Shown: positions 1 through 14,934 of the stretch, in pieces
Position numbering within the stretch: position 1 is the first letter of the stretch
Layout of the letters: each line of letters opens with the position of its first letter
From: a virus
Direction: 5' to 3' (one strand)
IMG/VR virus record: IMGVR_UViG_3300046010_001393
Span: 1 to 20,762 of that record
DNA: 20,762 nt
Notes under the pieces: model-generated
What the model was told of the DNA's origin: nothing
Database searches by the model: none
What the model saw: the letters and a program-made list of their open reading frames with translations, nothing else
Translations under genes and position numbers: made by a program

Positions 1-49
1 AAATGACCAACAATCTATTTACGATATTGACAATGATGAATATATCTAC

Positions 50-2125
50 ATGAAAGATGAGGAAGATGACAGAACAACAAAAGCCGTTGATGGTGGAAGT
101 TCCAATCCCCGTCAATCAAATGACTCCAGAGCAGAAGAAAGCCTTCGCGGAGGAGATTCTCAACGCAATCGAGAAGAATCGCCCCATGTCTGCCTCGGAA
201 GATACCAAGGCGTAGAAAAACACTTAGAGGGTCAGCATGACCAAGCCACACACGGCTCTTGGGCATCTGGTCGCTTTGGTCCAGATTCAGTTAAGTCAGC
301 AAGAGACGGCGCTAAAGAGTACGCCTTCAAAGCAGGAATTGAGCAAGACGATTCCATTGACTATCAAAAGACAGTTGCTAACCGAGCAAGAGCGGCGCGT
401 ATTGCCGATGCTTACGATGAATTGCCTACGGTTGATGAAGAAGCATTTCCAGCCTACACAGCCCTTGCTACAGAGGTAGAAGCGCAGTTCGAATATATGA
501 CAAAGACCTTGGGCGTTAAGGTTGAATTCGTAGCCGATGACCCATACAAAACTTCCAGAGAGATGTTTGCAGATGTAAGCAAGGGAGTTCTAAAAGTATT
601 AAGCACAGCCTCAACAGGCTCACATCCATTTCTTTCAGATGAACAGAACGACAAGTTTCGAGCAGTTCACGATTTCTTTGGACACGCGGCTACAGGTCGA
701 GGTTTCGGTCAAGACGGAGAAGAATCGGCTTGGGTTCACCACTCTCAGATGTTTACAGAGACCGCTCGCGGTGCGCTTACAACAGAAACCCGTGGGCAAA
801 ATTCTTGGTACAACTCACGCGGTAAAGTCTTTGCCGAGCAGAAAGTTGCCTTGCTACCTAAAGAGTTCTGGGAAGTTCCAGACACATTCGAGAAGTCTTA
901 CAAAGTAATTAAGTTTCAAGCGGGTCTCATCCCAATTCTTAAACACCAAGAGCATGACCAATCTACCCACGGCAATTGGGCTACCGCTGGATTTACAGAC
1001 GAAGAAAAAGCCCGTATTGCTGAATGGGAGAACCGTGGTCCAGCCCTTGAAGATTTAGATGCTCTTTGGGAGCCAGCAAGTGATGATGAGTTACGCGAAA
1101 TGCTTTTGAACGATGAAAATACTTATCCGCTTGTAGAACAGGCTATTGCCAATTATGTTCAGGCTGAGATTGACGATTATGAAGAAAGAGAAGGAAAATC
1201 TCCTACTAAAGCAATGATTGATGAGATGACCGAAAGAGTCACAGAGGAAAGAATCAAAGCGTATATTGAAATTGAGCGGGATGACTATTCTGAAAAAATT
1301 AGAGAATCTAAGGGCGTAACTGTAGATGCCCTACAACCATTCTTTGAAGAAGTATTCAATATGGAGCATACATATACAGATAAAGATGGAGTTGAGAAAA
1401 CTCTTGAATCAAGAATTACTGGCATTGGAAAAATGGCAGAAGATTATGAGATGTATGTTGAGGGATGGGTATACGATGAAAATGATGAGGCAGTAGGAAA
1501 GTTTGAAAGACTTTTCTTCAAAGACCAGACCACGGGTGTTTGGGCAGTTGAGCATAAATGGCTACAGATGGATGATGAACATAGAGGAGTAGGTTTTGGA
1601 AAAGCCTTTATTCAGCAGACTGAAGATTTCTTTACTCATCGAGGATTTGGATACATAAAAGTTCTTGCTGGTCTTGAAGATGGCGCTCGCCATTGGGCTA
1701 ATGCTGGCTATGACTTTAATCCTGATGAAATTGCAACATCAGCAACTAACCTTAAACAGCGTTTCGATAGTGTAATTAGTAACGCACCAGCAGATTTCTT
1801 CGTACAAGCAGATATTGATGAATTCAATTCGGTCTACGACAGAATGGTTGATAAATCAACTGGCAGGGTGAGAGATATGAAAAGCCCAGACTTCCCATTC
1901 CCAGCCGAGTTCACCATGATTGGTTATGACAGGCGCAAAGATTGGCAAGGTAATCCAACTTGGCTTGGTAAGGCGGGTCTTTATGGCTTTGCTGTTGAGT
2001 ATGTCAAGCCTTTGACCGCCGAGGGTCGTAGCCTTCTGGAAGGTCCAATTGACCGCGATGGTGATGGCTTGGTTTATGACGGAACAGGGCGCGAGAAACC
2101 TGCTCCAGCCCCAGCGAATAACTAA
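50..2125 (+). CDS. Multidomain tagged virion-associated protein with HDFFGH domain and GNAT-like domain
   Basis: I see a modular protein of 691 residues from the first in-frame ATG. The frame is open to the left window edge, so the true start may lie upstream, possibly as a C-terminal extension of a portal-like gene. Order: a tag at residues 57-74; a domain to about 290 with H207-D-F-F-G-H212 followed by a GEE.AW..H stretch and ETRGQN; a second tag at 298-314; a GNAT-like segment with R512-G-V-G-F-G517 resembling the acetyl-CoA loop and GARHWANAGYDF at 545-556; and a C-terminal D668-R-D-G-D-G loop like an EF-hand calcium site, then a Pro/Ala tail. The HDFFGH domain resembles those in phage polyvalent proteins. 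Residues before 57 look shadow-like, because a better-looking short frame overlaps them. A capsid-packaged effector is inference; enzymatic activity is unproven. Confidence 0.8.
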   Translation: MKDEEDDRTTKAVDGGSSNPRQSNDSRAEESLRGGDSQRNREESPHVCLGRYQGVEKHLEGQHDQATHGSWASGRFGPDSVKSARDGAKEYAFKAGIEQDDSIDYQKTVANRARAARIADAYDELPTVDEEAFPAYTALATEVEAQFEYMTKTLGVKVEFVADDPYKTSREMFADVSKGVLKVLSTASTGSHPFLSDEQNDKFRAVHDFFGHAATGRGFGQDGEESAWVHHSQMFTETARGALTTETRGQNSWYNSRGKVFAEQKVALLPKEFWEVPDTFEKSYKVIKFQAGLIPILKHQEHDQSTHGNWATAGFTDEEKARIAEWENRGPALEDLDALWEPASDDELREMLLNDENTYPLVEQAIANYVQAEIDDYEEREGKSPTKAMIDEMTERVTEERIKAYIEIERDDYSEKIRESKGVTVDALQPFFEEVFNMEHTYTDKDGVEKTLESRITGIGKMAEDYEMYVEGWVYDENDEAVGKFERLFFKDQTTGVWAVEHKWLQMDDEHRGVGFGKAFIQQTEDFFTHRGFGYIKVLAGLEDGARHWANAGYDFNPDEIATSATNLKQRFDSVISNAPADFFVQADIDEFNSVYDRMVDKSTGRVRDMKSPDFPFPAEFTMIGYDRRKDWQGNPTWLGKAGLYGFAVEYVKPLTAEGRSLLEGPIDRDGDGLVYDGTGREKPAPAPANN
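66..215 (+). CDS. Possible 49-residue overlapping protein or frameshifted N-terminus
   Basis: This short frame begins MTEQQKPLMVEVP and ends SASEDTKA. It overlaps the large modular gene in another frame. Its composition is balanced and amphipathic (TPEQKKAFAEEILNAIEKN forms a good helix), whereas the overlapping frame here is rich in Ser, Arg and Gly like a shadow. It stops exactly where the large gene enters its first tag (position 218). GAGG lies at 59-62, closer to the ATG than usual. ATG 57 in the same frame is an alternative start. It could be a real small gene, or the true N-terminus of the modular protein joined by a frameshift or an assembly indel. Confidence 0.4.
   Translation: MTEQQKPLMVEVPIPVNQMTPEQKKAFAEEILNAIEKNRPMSASEDTKA
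218..271 (+). repeat. HDQ-THG-WA tag, copy 1
   Basis: Encodes residues 57-74 of the first modular protein: KH, a four-residue insert, then HDQATHGSWASG. It shares the H-D-Q-x-T-H-G-x-W-A core with four other copies in this window and precedes the HDFFGH domain. Confidence 0.85.
941..991 (+). repeat. HDQ-THG-WA tag, copy 2
   Basis: Encodes residues 298-314 of the first modular protein (KHQEHDQSTHGNWATAG). It separates the HDFFGH domain from the acidic helical and GNAT-like part, so it marks a domain junction. Confidence 0.9.
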
Positions 2126-2137
2126 AGGTGGTAGGAT

Positions 2138-2293
2138 ATGGCTATGAGTAGAGATGCAAAGTTAAAAGAGATTCAAAAGGCATGGCGTGAATGGTCTGCC
2201 GTTACTGAGTTCACTTCGGACACAGGTTCATCTGACCAAGACGAAATTGCGCTTACCGACAAGATTCAAACTATACTTAAAAAATCTGAATAA
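2138..2293 (+). CDS. Small hypothetical protein, 51 residues
   Basis: This short gene fills most of the gap between the two large modular genes. It starts ATG GCT ATG behind a GGTGG/TAGGA stretch and encodes a charged helical peptide (KLKEIQKAWREWSAV) followed by an acidic linker and a second helix ending KKSE. It has no cysteine pairs, signal peptide or membrane segment. I recognise no family. The plausible SD, orientation and lack of any better frame here support it as real. A second in-frame ATG lies two codons in. A role in head assembly is only suggested by position. Confidence 0.6.
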   Translation: MAMSRDAKLKEIQKAWREWSAVTEFTSDTGSSDQDEIALTDKIQTILKKSE

Positions 2294-2312
2294 GGGTTAA
2301 AAATCAATCCGC

Positions 2313-2327
2313 TACTATGTACACATG
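2313..2327 (+). promoter_or_regulatory. Possible -10 element for a leaderless start at 2325
   Basis: TACTAT (2313-2318) fits the TANNNT -10 consensus and lies six bases before ATG 2325. No purine-rich SD is visible before that ATG, unlike almost every other gene here. That is the arrangement of leaderless transcripts, which are common in Actinobacteria. No good -35 is seen, so this is tentative. Confidence 0.3.
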
Positions 2328-4559
2328 GCGGATATTGCTCCTAAACTCGTAGAACTTAGCGCGGATAAACTACGCGCTCTACATGAACGCCTTCATAAGT
2401 CTGAAGCCACTCCAGAGGTATTGGAAGTCCACCATCTAGCAATCAATGAGATGTTGCGCCGTGGATTAGAAGCCCCAGCCAATGATGCGTGGGATGAATT
2501 CGAGATTCTCGTAGACACTCTCAAGGGAGCAAACCTAGAATCTCTCAAAGGCTCACTACCCGCTGAGATGGTAGAAGAAGTTATTAAATCAACAGGCTCA
2601 TCAGTTGCCAATGTGCAACTTTTCTTAACTACTACTGGGTACGAAATGCGCCTTGAAGAAGTTGAAGAAGTAAACAAAATGATTCGCCGTGAAAACGGAA
2701 AATGGACAGTTTACGATGAAGAAGGCAAGCGACCTTTTGGCACATACGACACAAAGGCTGAGGCTGAAAATCGTCTAGCCCAGATGCACCAGTTTAAGAA
2801 AGCAGAAACTTTTACACCTCCAAAGGCAGTTCGTAGCGCGGCTCGTAGAGCGCTCGATTGGATTGGCGAAGGCAAGGCTGGAAGTGGCTTTACTGGAGTT
2901 GGTCGCGCTCGCGCTAACCAATTGGCTTCAGGTGAGCAAGTAACAATGGCAACACTTAAACGCATGAAGTCTTTCTTCTCGCGCCATGAAGTTGATAAGG
3001 ATGCAGTTGGATTTAGCCAAGGAGAAAAGGGCTATCCAAGCGCAGGTCGAGTTGCTTGGGATGCTTGGGGTGGAGATGCAGGATTCGCTTGGGCTGAGTC
3101 TTTAGTCGCTGAAGATGATAAGAAAATTGAAAAACATAATCAGGGTATGCACGACCAAAAAACCCATGGCTCTTGGGCTGACGGTATTGCTCAAGCAATT
3201 TTGGATGGTGGTCACCCAACAGTTGAGAAAGAAAATGTTTCAGCCTTCCTCATGGCGGCGGCGAAACGAGATGACCACCCAGACCTTACTGAGTTAAGTG
3301 TTGAAGGAACATTGTTATACGGCGATGAGGGTATGGGAATTGCTCGTAAAGATATGCCACAGATTCCTGGAAAAGAACGAGGTCGCTTCCTTGCCGAAAT
3401 TGAAAAGTCTGAGGGCATTACATCAACGGCTGAAGAAATAGACCCAACAACTTTGAAGCCAGTCCAAAAAGAAATCTCTGCATCTCGCTCTGGAGCCATC
3501 TATAACAAATTCCGCGAAGAAGGCGGAATCCCAGAAAAAGAAAGAATCTTAGTTTCTAGCGATGGCTTTGTAATTGACGGTCACCATACATGGGGCGCTT
3601 CAGTTGCTTTTGCTTTCGATAACCCAGGAACCAAAATACCTATTTATCGCTTATCCGTAACGGCACAAGAAGCACTTGATGTTTCTCTCGAATGGTCTAC
3701 AGCAAATGGTTTTGAAGGTCAGGCTATTGATGCGAAAGAGCCAGCAAAGAAATCTCTAGCATGGAAACCTCTTGCAAAGCATGGAGAACATGACCAAAAA
3801 ACTCATGGTGCATGGGCTACGGGTGCAACAGGTGATGTTCCTGCTTTAGCGCCAGATGTTGAACCTCAAGGAAAATGGTCACGCGAGGCAGTTGCCGAGG
3901 CTAAGCGCATCCGTGAAAGAGCGCTTGCAGTTGAGCCAAAAGTTACAGAACTAATGAAAACCATTCAGGAAAATGCTGGTGGAGAATTTGTTCAATTAGA
4001 ACAAAGAGTTAAATCAACAGATTCATTGGCTCGCAAGATTGACAGCGATGCAGTTACAGAATTTGATGGCGACAGGTCAAGAGCGGCTGATGCTGTCTCT
4101 GATGCAGTTCGTTATACCCTAAAGGTAGGCGATGAGAATTACGCTCAATCCCTTGATTCAACAGTCAAGGCTCTTGAGGCATCTGGCTTCACATTGCGAG
4201 TTAAGAACTTCTGGCAGTCTGGTGACCCTTACGATGGAGTAAATATCAAGGCGAAGAAAGACGGCATTGAGGTAGAAATTCAGTTGCATACTCCAAGTTC
4301 ATTTGAACACAAAGAGGGCAAGGGTGGAACCCACCCAATCTATAAGGCTTATCAGGTTGAGTTGAATGATTCCAGCCGTCTGAGTATGTGGAATCAGATG
4401 ATTGAAATTGCTAAGGGTGTAACCCGCCCATCTAACTACGGGTCTATTCTGGCTACAGGAAGTCTCGTTCTACAGACATTCCAAACCGCTCAAGAGGCTG
4501 GCTTGATTAAATCAACCCCAGTTGGTAATATAACCCTCAAGAGAGGAGGACAAGCATGA
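2325..4559 (+). CDS. Multidomain tagged protein with ParB-like and RelA/SpoT-like domains
   Basis: A modular protein of 744 residues. Order: N-terminal helices; a small domain at about 127-160 (WTVYDEEGKRPFGTYDTKAEAENRL); a conserved phage domain at about 164-260 (PPKAVRSAARRAL to AWDAWGGDAG); tag at 270-287; a ParB-like segment with V416-I-D-G-H-H421; tag at 485-500; and a RelA/SpoT-like domain at about 510-700. The last shows RVKSTDSLARKI (K563, S567, K571), DAVRYT (593-598), PYDGVNI (635-641) and EVEIQLHT (649-656). These match the order of motifs in RelA/SpoT-type domains at the ends of polymorphic toxins, which transfer pyrophosphate to nucleotides. The ParB-like motif has HHTW instead of the usual HHRW. 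The gene overlaps the downstream protease gene by ATGA. I infer a capsid-packaged effector; activity is unproven. Confidence 0.88.
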   Translation: MADIAPKLVELSADKLRALHERLHKSEATPEVLEVHHLAINEMLRRGLEAPANDAWDEFEILVDTLKGANLESLKGSLPAEMVEEVIKSTGSSVANVQLFLTTTGYEMRLEEVEEVNKMIRRENGKWTVYDEEGKRPFGTYDTKAEAENRLAQMHQFKKAETFTPPKAVRSAARRALDWIGEGKAGSGFTGVGRARANQLASGEQVTMATLKRMKSFFSRHEVDKDAVGFSQGEKGYPSAGRVAWDAWGGDAGFAWAESLVAEDDKKIEKHNQGMHDQKTHGSWADGIAQAILDGGHPTVEKENVSAFLMAAAKRDDHPDLTELSVEGTLLYGDEGMGIARKDMPQIPGKERGRFLAEIEKSEGITSTAEEIDPTTLKPVQKEISASRSGAIYNKFREEGGIPEKERILVSSDGFVIDGHHTWGASVAFAFDNPGTKIPIYRLSVTAQEALDVSLEWSTANGFEGQAIDAKEPAKKSLAWKPLAKHGEHDQKTHGAWATGATGDVPALAPDVEPQGKWSREAVAEAKRIRERALAVEPKVTELMKTIQENAGGEFVQLEQRVKSTDSLARKIDSDAVTEFDGDRSRAADAVSDAVRYTLKVGDENYAQSLDSTVKALEASGFTLRVKNFWQSGDPYDGVNIKAKKDGIEVEIQLHTPSSFEHKEGKGGTHPIYKAYQVELNDSSRLSMWNQMIEIAKGVTRPSNYGSILATGSLVLQTFQTAQEAGLIKSTPVGNITLKRGGQA
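3132..3185 (+). repeat. HDQ-THG-WA tag, copy 3
   Basis: Encodes residues 270-287 of the second modular protein: KH, a four-residue insert, then HDQKTHGSWADG. It lies between the conserved AWDAWGGDAG domain and the ParB-like domain. Confidence 0.9.
3777..3824 (+). repeat. HDQ-THG-WA tag, copy 4
   Basis: Encodes residues 485-500 of the second modular protein (KHGEHDQKTHGAWATG). It sits directly between the ParB-like domain and the RelA/SpoT-like domain. Confidence 0.92.
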
Positions 4560-5254
4560 GATATTTCGTAAAGATGAGTAGAGGCGTACCGTTTAACCTG
4601 TATCGCTTCGACATAATCAATGAAGAACGCTGGTATCCGACACAAGGCTGGACACCAACGCGCAACATCTCCGCCTATCTAGTTATGGGCGAAGGCGATT
4701 ATGAAGAAATTACAGAGTCTCTAGCCAAAGAGACATTCCCTGATGCCTTTGCACTTGCAAAGAGCATTGGGGCTTATGAAGTCTCCAAGGCTGATAGCGA
4801 GAAGCGTTACACACTCGGAGCCATGTATATCCCAGACCGTATTGATGCTCACGGTGAGTGGACAGATTCAGATGAGTTGCAACGCGCAGTCTGGGATTAT
4901 GTAAAGAGCAATGACCGCCGTATCCGTCTCCAGCATAACCGCGATGTAGTCGCAGGTGAATGGGTAGAAGTTATGGCGTTCCCTTATGAATTAACAGTTC
5001 CAATCCAGACGATGACTGGCATTGATGTAAACCATACATACCCACCAAACACAGTCTTTCTCGGTGTTATCTGGGAGCCTTGGGCTTGGGATTTAGTAAA
5101 GACTGGAAAGATTCTTGGCTATTCAATCGGCGGTAAGGCAGAGCGCCTTTATGTTGATATGGAAGAAGTCGAAAAAGAAGATGGTCCAGGAGTCAATGAT
5201 GTCCATGTTGATACAATTATGAATCCAAAGAAGAAGAAACCAAAGGTGAAGTAA
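4556..5254 (+). CDS. Prohead protease, XkdF-like (Peptidase_S78_2 type)
   Basis: This 232-residue protein resembles the XkdF-type putative phage serine protease that trims scaffold and capsid proteins during head maturation. An N-terminal extension of about 80 residues (WYPTQGW, EEI) comes before the core. The core runs from YTLGAMYIPDRIDAHGEW through LQHNRDV (H127), YPPNTVFLGVIWEPWAWDLVK and GYSIGGKAERLYVD (S190). H127 and S190 are the likely catalytic pair, by analogy with herpesvirus-like prohead proteases; the third member is not clear. The tail is acidic then Lys-rich. A GGAGG site stands before the ATG, which overlaps the preceding stop (ATGA). Its place among tagged proteins and just before the scaffold and capsid genes fits a maturation protease. 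Confidence 0.85.
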   Translation: MRYFVKMSRGVPFNLYRFDIINEERWYPTQGWTPTRNISAYLVMGEGDYEEITESLAKETFPDAFALAKSIGAYEVSKADSEKRYTLGAMYIPDRIDAHGEWTDSDELQRAVWDYVKSNDRRIRLQHNRDVVAGEWVEVMAFPYELTVPIQTMTGIDVNHTYPPNTVFLGVIWEPWAWDLVKTGKILGYSIGGKAERLYVDMEEVEKEDGPGVNDVHVDTIMNPKKKKPKVK

Positions 5255-5808
5255 TGGGAATCATCGTCAATGATGGAGACAGCAAGCCAGTAAATCTCAC
5301 CTCTTATGCGGTTGATTTTGAAAAGGCTAAATCTGTAAAGAGTGGCGATATGGTTTCTTGGAATTCTTCAGGCGGAAGCGCAAGAGGCAAGGTAGTTCGA
5401 GTTGTCTCTAACGGAAAGATAAATGTTCCTGATTCAAGTTTTACAATTACTGGCACAGAAGATGACCCAGCAGTTCTTATTCAGTTGTACCGAGATGGTA
5501 AGCCAACAGAAACTAAAGTAGGACATAAGATGTCTACTCTAAAAAAAAACTCTGAAGTAGCCAAACACGGTAGCCACGACCAAGGTTCACACGGAGCGTG
5601 GGCTAACGGTAAGTACAGCCCTGATGACTCTGAAGGCGAAGATGACTCCGAACCAAAGAACCCAAAGAGTCCTAAAAAGTTACATTCTCACAATGACGAC
5701 TCCGAGGAGGAGTACGAAGAATTAGATGCCGATGACCCACGCTGGATGGATGACATGGACATTCTGCGCCCGTCTCGAATTACTCCAAGCCAGAGATTAA
5801 CCAAATAA
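5254..5808 (+). CDS. Tudor/HVA1-like small protein ending in a tag and acidic tail
   Basis: The first 100 residues (SGDMVSWNSSGGSARGKVVRV, INVPDSSFTITGTEDDPAVLIQLY, VGHKMSTL) resemble the Tudor/KOW-like small beta domains annotated as hypervirulence-associated or DUF2945-like proteins in phages. Such folds bind nucleic acid or protein, but the role here is unknown. A KHGSHDQGSHGAWANG tag follows at residues 104-119, then a very acidic, disordered tail of about 65 residues. Nine adenines (5541-5549) come just before the tag. The start overlaps the protease stop (TAATG), so the two are co-translated. Tag plus acidic tail on a single small domain suggests another loaded head protein; that is inference. 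Confidence 0.75.
   Translation: MGIIVNDGDSKPVNLTSYAVDFEKAKSVKSGDMVSWNSSGGSARGKVVRVVSNGKINVPDSSFTITGTEDDPAVLIQLYRDGKPTETKVGHKMSTLKKNSEVAKHGSHDQGSHGAWANGKYSPDDSEGEDDSEPKNPKSPKKLHSHNDDSEEEYEELDADDPRWMDDMDILRPSRITPSQRLTK
5563..5610 (+). repeat. HDQ-SHG-WA tag, copy 5
   Basis: Encodes residues 104-119 of the Tudor-like protein (KHGSHDQGSHGAWANG). It is the only copy with Ser in place of Thr before HG, and the only one followed by an acidic tail rather than a folded domain. Confidence 0.9.
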
Positions 5809-6075
5809 ATGCAAAGCATCATTGAAGATACTGCAAATATTCTTCGGGGGATGGGCTTAGAGGTAAATCCAGTTGCCACAACGCCAAGATTTGCTGGTTT
5901 AGTCGCTAAGTTACCCAACGACTCACAGGTATTTTTTGTCTGGAGCGAGATGGGCGAGGGAGATTTTCACTTCCGAGTTGCCCGTTTTTGGGAGAGCGAT
6001 AACCCATTTTCAATGATGGCTTTTGAGGATTTAATAAGCGCTCTGGTTAATTTGAGGATTTTGATTTCTTCTTAA
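5809..6075 (+). CDS. Hypothetical protein, 88 residues
   Basis: The ATG follows the preceding TAA directly, so it is probably translated by coupling. The protein looks like a compact alpha/beta domain: an N-terminal helix (IIEDTANILRGMGLEV), strands with aromatic residues (VFFVWSE, FHFRVARFW), then a C-terminal helix. No signal peptide, transmembrane helix or known motif is visible, and I do not recognise the family. It lies between the tagged proteins and the scaffold gene, so a head-related role is possible but unsupported. Confidence 0.65.
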   Translation: MQSIIEDTANILRGMGLEVNPVATTPRFAGLVAKLPNDSQVFFVWSEMGEGDFHFRVARFWESDNPFSMMAFEDLISALVNLRILISS

Positions 6076-6174: not shown

Positions 6175-6957
6175 ATGTTGGCTCGTACCCGCAAAATGGC
6201 GAATTTAGTCATTGAGGAAACATCTGGTGTAGACCATCCTGCACACTTACACGAAGGTTGGTTGGTTATGAAATCAGCCGATGAATCTGAAGTTCAGAGA
6301 GTCTTAGACGAAACGCTCACCGAGGAGGACTCCATCATGGAGGAAACAACAACCGCGGCTACTGATGCACAGGTCGAAAAGGCTGAAATGACACTTGAAG
6401 ATGCGATGAAGAAAATCGCTGAACTCGAAGGCAAACTTTCTGAAAAGGAAATGGCTAAAGAGGAAGATAAGTCAGAATCAGATAAGACCGAGGATGAAAT
6501 GGACTACATGAAGTCTGCTCCTGAGTCAGTCGTCAAAATGATTGAAGATTTCAAGAAGCAAGCAGAAACAGCAACCGAAGAACTCCGTAAGGAGCGCGAG
6601 GCTAAGGCTGATGCTGAAGCAATTGAAAAAGCAAAGGGATTCTCACACTTGAATCTTGAAGCAGAGAAGGTCGGACCAGCGCTTCGCCGTTTGTCTACAG
6701 TTGATGCAGAACTAGCAAAGTCAGTAGAGGAAATCCTCGCATCTGTAAATGCTCAGGCTGAATCAGCAAACATTTTTGCTGAAATCGGGAAATCAGCAGA
6801 TTTAACTACAGGTGATGCCTATGGTCGCTTGACCGCTTTGGCAAAGTCAGCAGTTGAAGAAGGAAATGCAAAATCATTCGAACAAGCGTTCGCTAATGCC
6901 GCATCTTCTAATCCTGAACTTTATGTCCAATACCGTAACGAGAAGGGTGCTAACTAA
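6175..6957 (+). CDS. Scaffold-like coiled-coil head protein
   Basis: A 260-residue, highly charged protein just before the decoration and major capsid genes, the classic scaffold position. The N-terminus (ANLVIEETSGVDHPAHLHEGWLVMKSA) resembles a segment at the start of many phage scaffold or protease-linked proteins. Residues about 70-155 are Glu/Lys-rich heptads predicted to form a coiled coil, and the C-terminal 80 residues are Ala-rich helices. AGGAG (6167-6171) is three bases from ATG 6175 and six from TTG 6178, so TTG could be the real start. An in-frame ATG at 6337 with a strong SD suggests a second, shorter product. It is probably a substrate of the XkdF-like protease. Confidence 0.72.
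   Translation: MLARTRKMANLVIEETSGVDHPAHLHEGWLVMKSADESEVQRVLDETLTEEDSIMEETTTAATDAQVEKAEMTLEDAMKKIAELEGKLSEKEMAKEEDKSESDKTEDEMDYMKSAPESVVKMIEDFKKQAETATEELRKEREAKADAEAIEKAKGFSHLNLEAEKVGPALRRLSTVDAELAKSVEEILASVNAQAESANIFAEIGKSADLTTGDAYGRLTALAKSAVEEGNAKSFEQAFANAASSNPELYVQYRNEKGAN
6322..6339 (+). promoter_or_regulatory. Internal ribosome binding site and in-frame ATG in the scaffold-like gene
   Basis: GAGGAGG (6322-6328) lies eight bases before an in-frame ATG (6337). Initiation there would give residues 55-260, dropping the conserved N-terminal segment and keeping the coiled coil. The site is better than the one before the annotated start. Confidence 0.45.
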
Positions 6958-6959
6958 AC

Positions 6960-7355
6960 ATGGCATACGAAATCAGTAATTACAGCGTTAAGGTCACCCT
7001 CGTAGCGGCGGCAGACCTTTCCTCAAAGCAGTACACATTCGTTAAGTTGGATTCTGATGGAAAGGTTGCGGCCGCTTCAGGCGCAACAGATATTCCAATC
7101 GGAGTTCTTCAGAACGCACCAATCGCAGGACAAGAAGCAGAAGTGCTTGTTGTTGGCGGAACAAAGATTGTTGCTGGAGCCGCAATTGGCGAAGGCGCAC
7201 TTGTAGGTACAGGTGCAACAGGCAAGGCAGTCGCTCTTGTCGCTGGAACAGATACAACAAAGTATGTTGTAGGAACACTACTAACCGAATCTGCGGCAGA
7301 TGGAAACATCGTTACAGCAGTTATTAACTGTGCCAATCCAGGCAGAGCGGCATAA
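6960..7355 (+). CDS. Capsid decoration/stabilisation protein, DUF2190-like
   Basis: A 131-residue Ala/Gly/Val-rich beta protein encoded right before the major capsid protein. The pattern (SNYSVKVTLVAAADLSSKQYTFVKL, IPIGVLQNAPIAGQEAEVLVVGGTKIVAGAAI) matches the DUF2190 type of capsid cement proteins, which bind the outside of HK97-fold shells. It has no cysteine pair, signal peptide or membrane helix; a single Cys lies near the C-terminus. The start is two bases after the scaffold stop, with only a weak purine stretch upstream. Family assignment is from pattern resemblance. Confidence 0.7.
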   Translation: MAYEISNYSVKVTLVAAADLSSKQYTFVKLDSDGKVAAASGATDIPIGVLQNAPIAGQEAEVLVVGGTKIVAGAAIGEGALVGTGATGKAVALVAGTDTTKYVVGTLLTESAADGNIVTAVINCANPGRAA

Positions 7356-7370
7356 GGGGGATAACTAACA

Positions 7371-8348
7371 ATGCCACAGCCAAATATCAATAGCGTTCAC
7401 ATTGATGCTATTCTCACAAACATCTCGGTTGCTTATTTACAGAACCAAGATAACTTCATTGCAGACAAGGTATTCCCAGTTATTCCTGTGGATAAGAAGT
7501 CTGACAAATACTTCACCTACACCAAGAACGATTGGTTCCGTGACGAGGCTCAGCGCCGCGCACCTGGAACTGAATCTGCTGGTGGCGGATACAACCTTTC
7601 AACTGGAACATACTCAGCAGATGTCTGGGCGTTCCACAAGGATGTAGATGACCAGACACTTGCTAACGCAGACTCACCTTTGAACCCTCTCCGTGAGGCG
7701 ACAGAGTTCGTTACTCGCCGTTTGATGCTTCGCCGCGAACTTCAGTTCGTAAGCGACTTTTTCACAACTGGCGTATGGGCTGACGATGTAACAGGTGTTG
7801 CTGGCGCTCCATCATCAGGCGAGACAAAGCATTGGTCAGATTACGCATCATCAGACCCAATCGCTGACATCGAGTCAGGTAAGGCTGAGATTCTTGGTAA
7901 TACAGGAATGGAAGCAAACACACTCGTTCTCGGATACGATGTATTCAAGGCTCTTAAGAATCACCCAGACCTTGTAGACCGTATCAAGTACACATCTTCA
8001 CAGACAATCACAACCGATATGCTCGCGGCAATGTTCGACATTCCACGCGTTATGGTTGCAAAGGCTGTTAAGGCAACAAACAACGAAGGCGCATCAGAGG
8101 CTTACGGCTTTGCATTTGGCAAGGGCGCACTCCTTACCCATGTTGCTCCAAACCCAGGACTTCTAACACCATCAGCGGGTTACACATTCGCTTGGACAGG
8201 TGTTTCAGGTGGTCTCGGACAGACTGTTGGAACTTCACAGTTCCGCATGGAGTCAATCAAGTCAGACCGCATTGAAGCGGAAATGGCATTTGATAACAAG
8301 GTAATCGGAGCAGACCTCGGTTACTTCTGGAACACAATCGTTGCATAA
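7371..8348 (+). CDS. Major capsid protein
   Basis: A 325-residue protein with the layout of a phage major head protein: an N-terminal arm (INSVHIDAILTNISVAYLQNQDNFIADKVFPVIPVDKKSDKY), a charged loop (NDWFRDEAQRRAPG), and a helix like the HK97-fold spine helix (PLREATEFVTRRLMLRRELQFVSDFF), then repeated beta segments and a C-terminal domain ending ADLGYFWNTIVA. No long N-terminal delta domain is present, so scaffold function probably lies in the separate upstream protein. A GGGGG-containing SD (around 7354-7360) precedes the ATG. A strong intrinsic terminator follows. Fold class is inferred from motif pattern and position. Confidence 0.88.
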   Translation: MPQPNINSVHIDAILTNISVAYLQNQDNFIADKVFPVIPVDKKSDKYFTYTKNDWFRDEAQRRAPGTESAGGGYNLSTGTYSADVWAFHKDVDDQTLANADSPLNPLREATEFVTRRLMLRRELQFVSDFFTTGVWADDVTGVAGAPSSGETKHWSDYASSDPIADIESGKAEILGNTGMEANTLVLGYDVFKALKNHPDLVDRIKYTSSQTITTDMLAAMFDIPRVMVAKAVKATNNEGASEAYGFAFGKGALLTHVAPNPGLLTPSAGYTFAWTGVSGGLGQTVGTSQFRMESIKSDRIEAEMAFDNKVIGADLGYFWNTIVA

Positions 8349-12073: not shown

Positions 12074-13072
12074 GTGTCACTAATAGGTCGTTTGTTAAAG
12101 GCTAACCCGTCAGCGCAAGTTTCAGATATGCTGACGGGGTATTTCGTCATTCCTTCTGCAAAAGGCGCGGCTACGGCACCCGTTTCGGGCAGAGGAATTT
12201 TTGCTGGTGGAAACACTAGCGGAACAGGCGCTCCTAATAGTCCTATTATTGATTATATTACTATCGAAACCCTTGGTAACGCTACAAGTTTTGGTCAGTT
12301 AGCAACTGGCAAAAGAGGTGGACCTAAAGGTGGTGGTTCATCAACTAGGGCAGTCATGGGTGGTGGATACGGTTCAAATTATTCAAGTGACATTGAATAT
12401 ATAACTATTGCTACTACTGGTAACGCTACAAGTTTTGGTAGTTTATCAACAGCAAGAGAAGGTCACGCGGGAGCAAGTAATTCAACAAGAGCCTTGATTG
12501 GCTCTGGTGGCGGTCCTAGTGGTGCTTTACTTAGTATGGAATATGTAACTATAGCCTCAACTGGTAATGGTACAAATTTTGGAGATACAACAGTAGGTCG
12601 TAGTGAATCCTCTGCTACTGCTTCACCAACAAGAGCCTTGGTTGCTGGAGGTTATACATCTGGTCCTAAACTAAGTAGTATTGATTATTACACTATTGAT
12701 AGCGCTAGTGCCGCCACAAATTTTGGAAATTTAACAGTAGCAAGGGCTAATGTTGGGTCTTGTTCAAACGGAATTAGAGGAGTGTTTGCTGGTGGCGATA
12801 ATGGAACAGCATACATAAATGTTATGGATTATGTAACCATCGCCTCAACTGGTAATGCAACTGACTTCGGTGATTTAACGGTAGGAAAATTTGGTACTTT
12901 GGCTACATCAGGTGGAAGTCGAGGAGTATTTGCTGGAGGTTATTCAACGACTCAAACTTCCACAATTGATTATGTTTCTATACCTACTACTGGCAACGGT
13001 ACAAATTTTGGTAATTTAACTGAACCTAGATATGGTGCTTTTGGTGGTTCCAGCGCACATGGAGGTCTGTAA
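12074..13072 (+). CDS. Propeller-like adhesin I, six repeats
   Basis: A 332-residue protein starting with GTG behind TAGGAG. A 35-residue N-terminal part (ANPSAQVSDMLTGYFVIPSAKG) is shared with the next protein. Then come six repeats of about 49 residues, each with a [ID]-[YF]-[VI]-[TS]-I-x-x-x-G-N-A-T-x-F-G-x-L strand, an R, a S-x-x-[ST]-R-[GA] turn and a G-G-x end. It finishes SSAHGGL. Six repeats of this length with a GG hairpin look like a Kelch-like six-bladed beta-propeller, which commonly binds carbohydrate or protein. I infer a virion adhesin. The last codons contain the SD for the next gene. Confidence 0.75.
   Translation: MSLIGRLLKANPSAQVSDMLTGYFVIPSAKGAATAPVSGRGIFAGGNTSGTGAPNSPIIDYITIETLGNATSFGQLATGKRGGPKGGGSSTRAVMGGGYGSNYSSDIEYITIATTGNATSFGSLSTAREGHAGASNSTRALIGSGGGPSGALLSMEYVTIASTGNGTNFGDTTVGRSESSATASPTRALVAGGYTSGPKLSSIDYYTIDSASAATNFGNLTVARANVGSCSNGIRGVFAGGDNGTAYINVMDYVTIASTGNATDFGDLTVGKFGTLATSGGSRGVFAGGYSTTQTSTIDYVSIPTTGNGTNFGNLTEPRYGAFGGSSAHGGL
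12191..13069 (+). repeat. Six-repeat propeller-like module 1
   Basis: Six in-frame repeats, average about 49 residues, ending HGGL. Repeat cores: TIETLGNATSFGQL, TIATTGNATSFGSL, TIASTGNGTNFGDT, TIDSASAATNFGNL, TIASTGNATDFGDL and SIPTTGNGTNFGNL. Confidence 0.85.
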
Positions 13073-14934
13073 TGTCTTACTTGCCACAAATTAGAATCCT
13101 TGTGCCATCCGCTCAAGTATCTAGTTACACAACTGGAACTTTTAGTTTGCCAAGCGCCAAGCAAGGATTTATTCTACCTGCATATCTAGCAGTATTAAAT
13201 GCTGGTACTGGAACTGGTTCCCTACAAGAATTGAACTTAACAACAGCAGGAAACGCAGTAAATTTTGGAAACGCTTACAACGATAGCCAGCCATCAGCAT
13301 CAGGGAATACTGTTATCTCAGTAATGGCTGGCGGTGCAGACGGACCATGGACAAGTCTTGTTTTCTCAACAAGAGGAAACAGCACTCTATTCGGCAGTAT
13401 GCAGACAAACTCTTATGCTACGGCAACAGTAAGTTCTGATACAAGAGGAATTCTTTCAGGTGGAGACAGAGATGGTCTAAAGAGCCGTCTTGAATATGTA
13501 ACATTTGCATCTCAAGGTAACGGTACATTTTTTGGAACTGGTGCCACAATATTTACCCACGCAGGTGTTCAATCTACGACCCGTGGAGTATACGGTGGCG
13601 GTATTTCTGGTTCTAGCAGACAAAGCCGCATGGATTACATCACTATGGCTACTACTGGAAACACTACAAGTTTTGGTGATTTAACAGTAGCGAGAGGACA
13701 ACTTGCTGGAACTTCTTCTAATACTCGAGGTTTATTTGCTGGTGGAGATACTCCTGCATATAACATCATTGATTATATTACTATCGCTTCAACGGGAAAT
13801 GCTACAGATTTCGGTGATTTGACTGTTGCTCGTTTTGTTTTGGGAGGGGCTACAAATCAAACAGTAGGAGTTTTTGCAGGTGGAAACTCAACAAATAATG
13901 CAATAATAGATTCTGTAAACATTGCTACTTTAGGTAATGCTTCATCTTGGGGTTCTCTTACAACAGGAAAAAATTTAGGTCCTGCTCAATCATCTCAAGC
14001 CCACGGCGGTATTGATATTTCAGGAATCACATTCCCAGTAATAGGCGAAAAGGCTATGTTCTTTGGAGGTATACCTTCAGGATGGACAAATACGGTTGAT
14101 TTTGTAGCAATTGCTTATCTTGGAGATGCCCGTGACTTCGGAGATTTAAGTATTGTAAAACGAGGAATGACTAACGGAACTGTGTCTACCAGTTCACGCG
14201 CCGTTGTTGCAGGTGGAGATACCACATCTGATGTACTTCAGGGAGGTATTGAATACTTCTCATGGGCAACAAGTGGAAATGCTACTTCTTTTGGCAATTT
14301 ATCTGTTTCGAGAATGTATCTTGGTGGAGCATCTAATTCTACCGTTGGTCTACACGCTGGCGGTACAGGCGGCGGCGGCGGCTCATTCTATTCAAATGTT
14401 ATTGACTACATAACTATCGCCGCATCTGGTAACGCAACAGATTTTGGTGACCTCACCGCTCAAAGAGGTTTTGTCACAGGCTTGGCTTCTACAACCCGCG
14501 CTTGTTTTTCAGGAGGATTTACACCTTCATCGGCTACAACGGAAATTCAATATGTAACAATTGCCTCTGCTGGAAATGCTACTAACTTTGGAGCATTAAC
14601 TGTTGCTCGCTATCAAGCAGAATCTCTTGCCAATTCAACTCGCGGAGTCGTAGCGGGTGGCTATGCAGGTGGTAGTAGCAATGTTATTGACTACTTCACA
14701 ATTGCTTCTACAGGAAATGCTACAGATTTTGGTGATTTAACTGGCGCTTCTTATTCTGGCGCTGGAGCGGCAGGTTCAACAAGGGGGTTGTTTGCTAAAG
14801 GGTATCAAGCAGGAGCGGTTTCTGGAATTGACTACATAACCATTCAATCCGCTGGAAATGCCGCTAGTTTTGGCAGTCTAAGTCAAGCACGATACGATTT
14901 ATCAGGAGCATCTAATTCACATGGAGGACTATAA
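13072..14934 (+). CDS. Propeller-like adhesin II, two six-repeat modules
   Basis: A 620-residue protein overlapping the preceding stop (TAATG), with GGAGG six bases upstream. The N-terminal part (VPSAQVSSYTTGTFSLPSAKQGF) is homologous to that of the preceding protein. Two six-repeat modules follow; the first ends SQAHGGI, and after a short linker (DISGITFPVIGEK) the second ends SNSHGGL. The first two repeats of module 1 are the most divergent (LNLTTAGNAVNFG, VFSTRGNSTLFG). Probably two tandem beta-propellers for binding a host surface structure. The gene looks like the result of duplication of the neighbour. No enzymatic motif is visible. Confidence 0.75.
   Translation: MSYLPQIRILVPSAQVSSYTTGTFSLPSAKQGFILPAYLAVLNAGTGTGSLQELNLTTAGNAVNFGNAYNDSQPSASGNTVISVMAGGADGPWTSLVFSTRGNSTLFGSMQTNSYATATVSSDTRGILSGGDRDGLKSRLEYVTFASQGNGTFFGTGATIFTHAGVQSTTRGVYGGGISGSSRQSRMDYITMATTGNTTSFGDLTVARGQLAGTSSNTRGLFAGGDTPAYNIIDYITIASTGNATDFGDLTVARFVLGGATNQTVGVFAGGNSTNNAIIDSVNIATLGNASSWGSLTTGKNLGPAQSSQAHGGIDISGITFPVIGEKAMFFGGIPSGWTNTVDFVAIAYLGDARDFGDLSIVKRGMTNGTVSTSSRAVVAGGDTTSDVLQGGIEYFSWATSGNATSFGNLSVSRMYLGGASNSTVGLHAGGTGGGGGSFYSNVIDYITIAASGNATDFGDLTAQRGFVTGLASTTRACFSGGFTPSSATTEIQYVTIASAGNATNFGALTVARYQAESLANSTRGVVAGGYAGGSSNVIDYFTIASTGNATDFGDLTGASYSGAGAAGSTRGLFAKGYQAGAVSGIDYITIQSAGNAASFGSLSQARYDLSGASNSHGGL
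13186..14010 (+). repeat. Six-repeat propeller-like module 2
   Basis: Six repeats averaging about 46 residues, ending HGGI. Its first blades are divergent, while blades 4 and 5 (TMATTGNTTSFGDL, TIASTGNATDFGDL) match the consensus. Confidence 0.82.
14044..14931 (+). repeat. Six-repeat propeller-like module 3
   Basis: Six repeats averaging about 49 residues, ending HGGL. Cores include AIAYLGDARDFGDL, SWATSGNATSFGNL, TIAASGNATDFGDL and TIASTGNATDFGDL. Confidence 0.85.

Follow-up and report, generated by a model that had tools for sequence, protein, structure and literature searches.

How does a phage choose the proteins that it injects? The answer is known for few phages, and the question is raised by the locus studied here, i.e., a 20,762-base viral record that encodes a head region (IMGVR_UViG_3300046010_001393; "the window" means this whole stretch). 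In the window, as in many phages, the same short floppy peptide, which we call the tag, stands before very different host-attacking enzymes, beside the genes that build the head. We suggest that the tag probably serves as an address label, directing these enzymes into the virion. If this is true, injected effectors would be predictable from sequence, including many proteins without known function; the tag would provide a handle for loading chosen proteins into harmless laboratory phages; and the free reshuffling of effector sets would be explained.

A preliminary description of the window had noted five copies of the tag in three proteins. Scanning with the pattern K-H-x(2,4)-HDQ-x-[TS]-HG-x-WA recovered five; all are on the + strand, and the open frames that carry them are P1, P2 and P4. 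The core matches began at 236, 953, 3150, 3789 and 5575, within all five intervals given earlier:

218..271, + strand: tag copy 1 (KHLEGQHDQATHGSWASG), pattern match; AlphaFold pLDDT (predicted local distance difference test) <50 through residue 85
941..991, + strand: tag copy 2 (KHQEHDQSTHGNWATAG), pattern match; pLDDT <50 at residues 291-328
3132..3185, + strand: tag copy 3 (KHNQGMHDQKTHGSWADG), pattern match; pLDDT 37 in block 271-280
3777..3824, + strand: tag copy 4 (KHGEHDQKTHGAWATG), pattern match; pLDDT about 30
5563..5610, + strand: tag copy 5 (KHGSHDQGSHGAWANG), pattern match

There were no matches in 100 dinucleotide-preserving shuffles of the window, and a reversed control pattern matched neither the window nor 49 other viral records. 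The silent codon positions of the tag vary freely while its residues are fixed (histidine is encoded by CAT (260) or CAC (216), and glycine by four codons); conservation is therefore at the level of the protein, and an origin of the tag as a recent DNA repeat was ruled out. At the position of the second tag of P1, the residues K, H, D, Q, H, G, W, A and G were invariant among 33 homologues. AlphaFold models of P1 and P2, built with 33 and 35 sequences, respectively, showed low confidence at all four tags modelled, with the domains mostly at 80-90. In these models P1 and P2 are predicted to be disordered at their tags, and an invariant sequence within a disordered region would be typical of a short binding motif.

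Where else does the tag occur? A pattern scan of viral contigs revealed this form, which we term the HDQ type, in at least 119 stretches, and there were hundreds of copies across viral contigs. The cellular contigs (11.3 million, 257 Gb) yielded six matching stretches, one of them with the full K-H context; the matches in L125, L126, L127, L129 and L130 lack that context and resemble chance matches. In each of 49 whole viral records, the tags all lay on the same strand, with up to 18 per phage; an XkdF-type protease was present in 35 of these records and the same capsid family in 33, many of the records being fragments. For an unbiased survey, 80 loci were picked by their capsid gene rather than by the tag. 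All 175 tags in these loci were upstream of the capsid gene and on its strand; the opposite strand and the 381 kb downstream were free of tags, and every locus with at least 6 kb upstream contained tags (24 of 24). Because the capsids in this survey were at least 90% identical to that of the window, the loci represent one lineage and not many independent cases. A link between the tag and the head-assembly region had been proposed from the window; the survey bears it out, and an equal frequency of the tag elsewhere, which had been named as a refutation, was not seen. A 60,849-base relative encodes, in this order, the portal, MuF, four tagged genes, a P2-like tagged gene, the protease, scaffold-like genes and the capsid.

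Within proteins, the tags follow a simple grammar. Half of the first tags were within 30 residues of the first ATG, the spacing of tags within one protein was typically ~200 residues, and at least 35 residues followed every tag seen. The expected bias towards domain borders was apparent when tagged proteins were compared with one another (294 after deduplication): 52% of the ends of homology lay, in both partners, no more than 25 residues from a tag, or 38% with the tags masked, compared with 1.7% for random positions, a count that leaves out homology resuming beyond the tag and carries no p-value because the comparisons are not independent. Modules have therefore been shuffled at the tags. 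The segments adjoining tags matched ADP-ribosyltransferases, DRAT, Zeta toxin, GNAT, HAD, cytidylyltransferase, and lethal-factor-like and SprT-like peptidases, as well as MuF, portal and head proteases; proteins with the arrangement MuF-tag-effector were found in L070, L088 and L221.

A second scan, prompted by the tag-like sequence KFNPYHDEIGRFT in L092, revealed another type of tag, KFNPxHDE-x-GRF (the HDE type). There were 172 copies, 83% of them with K two residues before NP, and up to 10 per record; a control pattern for this type gave none. The 79 HDE-tagged proteins matched portal families (24 family hits), MuF (8) and head proteases (5), and also ADP-ribosyltransferases and Zeta toxin. 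HDE tags hold the same positions as HDQ tags, and 66 of the 181 segments behind them had a relative behind an HDQ tag, a figure that includes one overlap within L092 and counts near-duplicate contigs. A module common to L295 and L024 is 81.5% identical and bears different tag types in the two, while L295 and L335, with portal-MuF DNA that is 87% identical, share the same leader up to the tag and differ in tag type at that point. HDQ tags and a single HDE tag occur together in G018; fetched records with both types were few (2 were found). In one protein of L092 (P0001), variant tags (KHSGGEAHGGTDDQSSHGNWANG) stand next to canonical HDQ and HDE tags. The HDE type is also present in a prohead protease and in an archaeal provirus, Pro-Nvie1; in the latter it is in the portal, and a gene with a Rel/Spo domain follows. 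Of 41 records with HDE tags, 15 had the S78_2 protease above the cut-off and 9 had S78. Thus, of the clustering around the XkdF-type protease proposed in the preliminary description, the link to the head region stands and the tie to XkdF does not; the tag does not follow a single protease family, although both families could share a specificity.

What would such a tag do? With the tag identified, clustered beside head genes, placed at the seams of shuffled modules and exchanged between two types, all as seen in sequence comparisons, and with disorder predicted, our preferred reading is that it is a short disordered recognition motif marking proteins for the interior of the procapsid, the effectors being packaged and later injected. 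We hold this reading tentatively, at slightly less than an even chance. A component of the assembling head (the capsid lining, scaffold, portal or protease) would bind the tag, and we infer that the effector modules behind it would be packaged into the head and then injected with the DNA. The same tag would work before any module, and recombination at the tag would let phages acquire or exchange effectors; the HDE type would do the same job as the HDQ type.

There are precedents for a peptide of this kind. The T4 capsid-targeting sequence, a short N-terminal peptide of IPII and IPIII, sends unrelated proteins, even GFP, into the prohead core (PMC9958956), and the cargo-loading (targeting) peptides of encapsulins are short motifs that bring cargo enzymes into an HK97-fold shell (PMC8346489, PMC10960027). 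The new tag is like the T4 sequence in being short, mostly N-terminal and borne by proteins whose genes accompany those of the head, although internal copies occur too. It differs in that copies also stand between modules and in fusions of the portal, MuF and protease, and in that there are two interchangeable types; the two are likened by position, not sequence. Its likeness to the encapsulin peptides would be one of role, the new tag being carried by head proteins and effectors of phages. Fusions of effectors to MuF, portal or protease have already been described (PMC9503650, PMC5512222), as have polyvalent proteins, i.e., multidomain effectors encoded beside head genes and believed to be packaged and injected (PMC5512222, PMC9503650). 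P1, P2 and their 2,000-residue relatives are polyvalent in this sense, with several effector domains per polypeptide near head genes; however, no peptide shared at module borders was found in the accessible parts of those descriptions. There was no mention of the tag strings in the accessible parts of the open-access literature either, and the tag appears to be undescribed.

Several observations weigh against a role in loading. Cultured relatives whose capsids are 53-58% identical had no tag in the regions read. In G009 (L225 2069-3204), two small tagged proteins, each with a helical-looking N-terminus, are encoded ~18 kb from the cluster, adjoining a probable terminase gene. Some tags are in portal, MuF and protease fusions, i.e., in proteins that already belong to the head, for which a loading signal looks redundant. 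Finally, the stretch of at least 35 residues after every tag would fit a cleavage site as well.

Such a site is the strongest of the alternatives, although we consider it unlikely. The tag would be processed by the prohead protease, and a cut at maturation would free effectors from the portal, MuF, a leader or neighbouring modules, and would trim tails. Tags do stand between a head protein, leader or module and the part that comes next, always with those 35 or more residues behind them, and it is plausible that effectors fused to the portal or MuF would have to be released. The prohead protease of ctUhy936 itself carries two tags after its catalytic domain, and the HDE triplet is reminiscent of the AXE cleavage motif of SPN3US (PMC10052503). 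However, with about 10 conserved positions over 14-18 residues the tag would be rather long for such a site, Q stands in the HDQ type where E would occupy the P1 position of the site, and two tag types serve closely related heads, the HDE type occurring with either S78 or S78_2 proteases. A loading tag accounts for tagged effectors that stand alone and for the confinement of tags to head genes, whereas a cleavage site better explains the tags between head proteins and effectors. We rank loading first, not far short of an even chance, and cleavage second, at clearly lower probability; T4 combines both (PMC9958956).

That combination, a targeting motif later removed by the prohead protease, seems improbable for the tag. 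The T4 internal proteins have a targeting sequence of ~10 residues at the N-terminus and lose small N-terminal peptides to gp21 (PMC9958956). The position of half of the first tags, close to the first ATG, would suit a similar fate. However, tags are also internal, between modules, an arrangement for which we know of no counterpart in T4. Less probable again is a passive linker or recombination joint with no binding partner, kept since modules spread by recombining there. The breaks in homology and the predicted disorder agree with this, but fixed residues with varying silent sites are not expected from recombination purely at the DNA level, the same position carries different tag types behind conserved leaders, and tags avoid the genes downstream of the capsid. 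Metal binding by the repeated histidines, as had been suggested from the window, is very improbable, since three histidines are conserved in HDQ tags and the interchangeable HDE tags keep only one of them.

If the tag directs loading, how far might it extend? Ottawa, Salgado and ValentiniPuff had no tag in the regions near MuF, and a short tblastn search with the HDQ tag against cultured phages and plasmids gave no match, a negative that is informative because the same kind of search did find HDE tags. Queries with peptides modelled on similar motifs gave weak matches in cultured phages (E 0.6-9). These were at the N-terminus of the head protease in Mycobacterium smegmatis phage Predator (gp14) and Nocardia P3.1; in portal or portal-like proteins, namely those of PhiXhv-5 and of Orimi01, where a likely ADP-ribosyltransferase comes next, and one of the HI1409 family; and in gp48 of Streptomyces phage Gilgamesh (L345 from 2411), as the tag-like N-terminus of a ~13.9 kb gene beside a portal-MuF fusion. 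We treat them as leads and not as evidence of homology. The tag family may include weaker relatives from cultured phages, with the forms HPR-x-x-GRF or QPRD-x-x-GRW. It is conceivable, if somewhat doubtful, that a broad family of interchangeable tags exists in the tailed viruses of bacteria and archaea, with one head component reading them and arsenals of injected effectors exchangeable behind the tag.

The proteins and modules of the window around the tags are as follows:

2..2125, + strand: P1, tagged two-module protein, open at the contig edge; complete relatives have a third tag upstream
290..871, + strand: P1 module A, phrog_3170
998..1921, + strand: P1 module B, helical region plus GNAT-fold acetyltransferase (weak sequence match; Foldseek best E 1.7e-3)
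2042..2101, + strand: DxDGDG motif (GPIDRDGDGLVYDGTGREKP), invariant in P1 homologues and recurring in other tagged proteins
2325..4559, + strand: P2, tagged protein (end-to-end match to phrog_2859, 998 bits)
3186..3704, + strand: ParB-N-like module of P2 (Foldseek, pNOB8-like ParB N-domain, probability 1.00, E 0.07-0.2)
3882..4439, + strand: alarmone-synthetase (SAS/Apk2-like) module of P2 (8vx3 sequence match 4.1e-15; Foldseek 1.6e-9)
4556..5254, + strand: P3, XkdF-type prohead protease, untagged (PF14550, 1.7e-11)
5254..5808, + strand: P4, Tudor-like domain, tag, acidic tail (PF11160, 3e-9)
6175..6957, + strand: acidic, probably scaffold-like protein, phrog_13547, untagged
6960..7355, + strand: phrog_673 protein, annotated as head scaffolding, untagged
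7371..8348, + strand: major capsid protein, phrog_1005, untagged, anchor of the capsid-based survey

The separate matches for each module agree with the earlier view that the domains flanking the tags are unrelated, and P4 has its tag before an acidic tail, as had been described. The module A domain is also found in gp205 of Rhodococcus phage E3, whose annotation is "structural protein", and in Bixzunavirus phages close to the capsid gene; these homologues are without the tag. For module B, acetyltransferases dominated the top 50 Foldseek matches. The motif DxDGDGxxxxGTxxE (window 2042-2101; L070, L092, L099), which by resemblance is calcium-loop-like, ends or separates modules in several tagged proteins.

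The alarmone-synthetase module of P2 was 33-35% identical to MuF C-terminal domains of Streptococcus phages, and related domains are present in head proteins of Mannheimia and Pasteurella phages; it is from these genera that Apk2 toxins have been described (PMC12226406). Judged by its sequence and predicted fold, the C-terminus of P2 is homologous to the Apk2-type toxin domain, i.e., to the MuF C-terminal domains of Apk2-type phages (PMC12226406, PMC5576092). Unlike in the MuF polymorphic toxins, the tag in P2 joins this module to the ParB-like module and not to an N-terminal MuF: P2 had no MuF match, and in the relative G008 MuF is encoded as a separate gene. The same kind of toxin is thus fused to MuF elsewhere and carried behind a tag in P2. 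Searching Escherichia coli genomes gave nothing close to P2. Next to the Apk2-like domain (3882-4439) there is no immunity gene recognised as a hydrolase or an inhibitor; 5809-6075 encodes an unassigned product of 88 residues.

A few minor observations were made. In L222 (8212-8895) a tag begins but lacks its second half (KHAEHDQKTHGRRKTAG). The two contig ends of G001 (23-49, 61654-61680) carry identical tag DNA, which suggests a terminal repeat or a circular genome. At 12074-14934 the window encodes two adjoining proteins made of repeats (ITIASTGNATDFGDLT), which are probably fibre-like.
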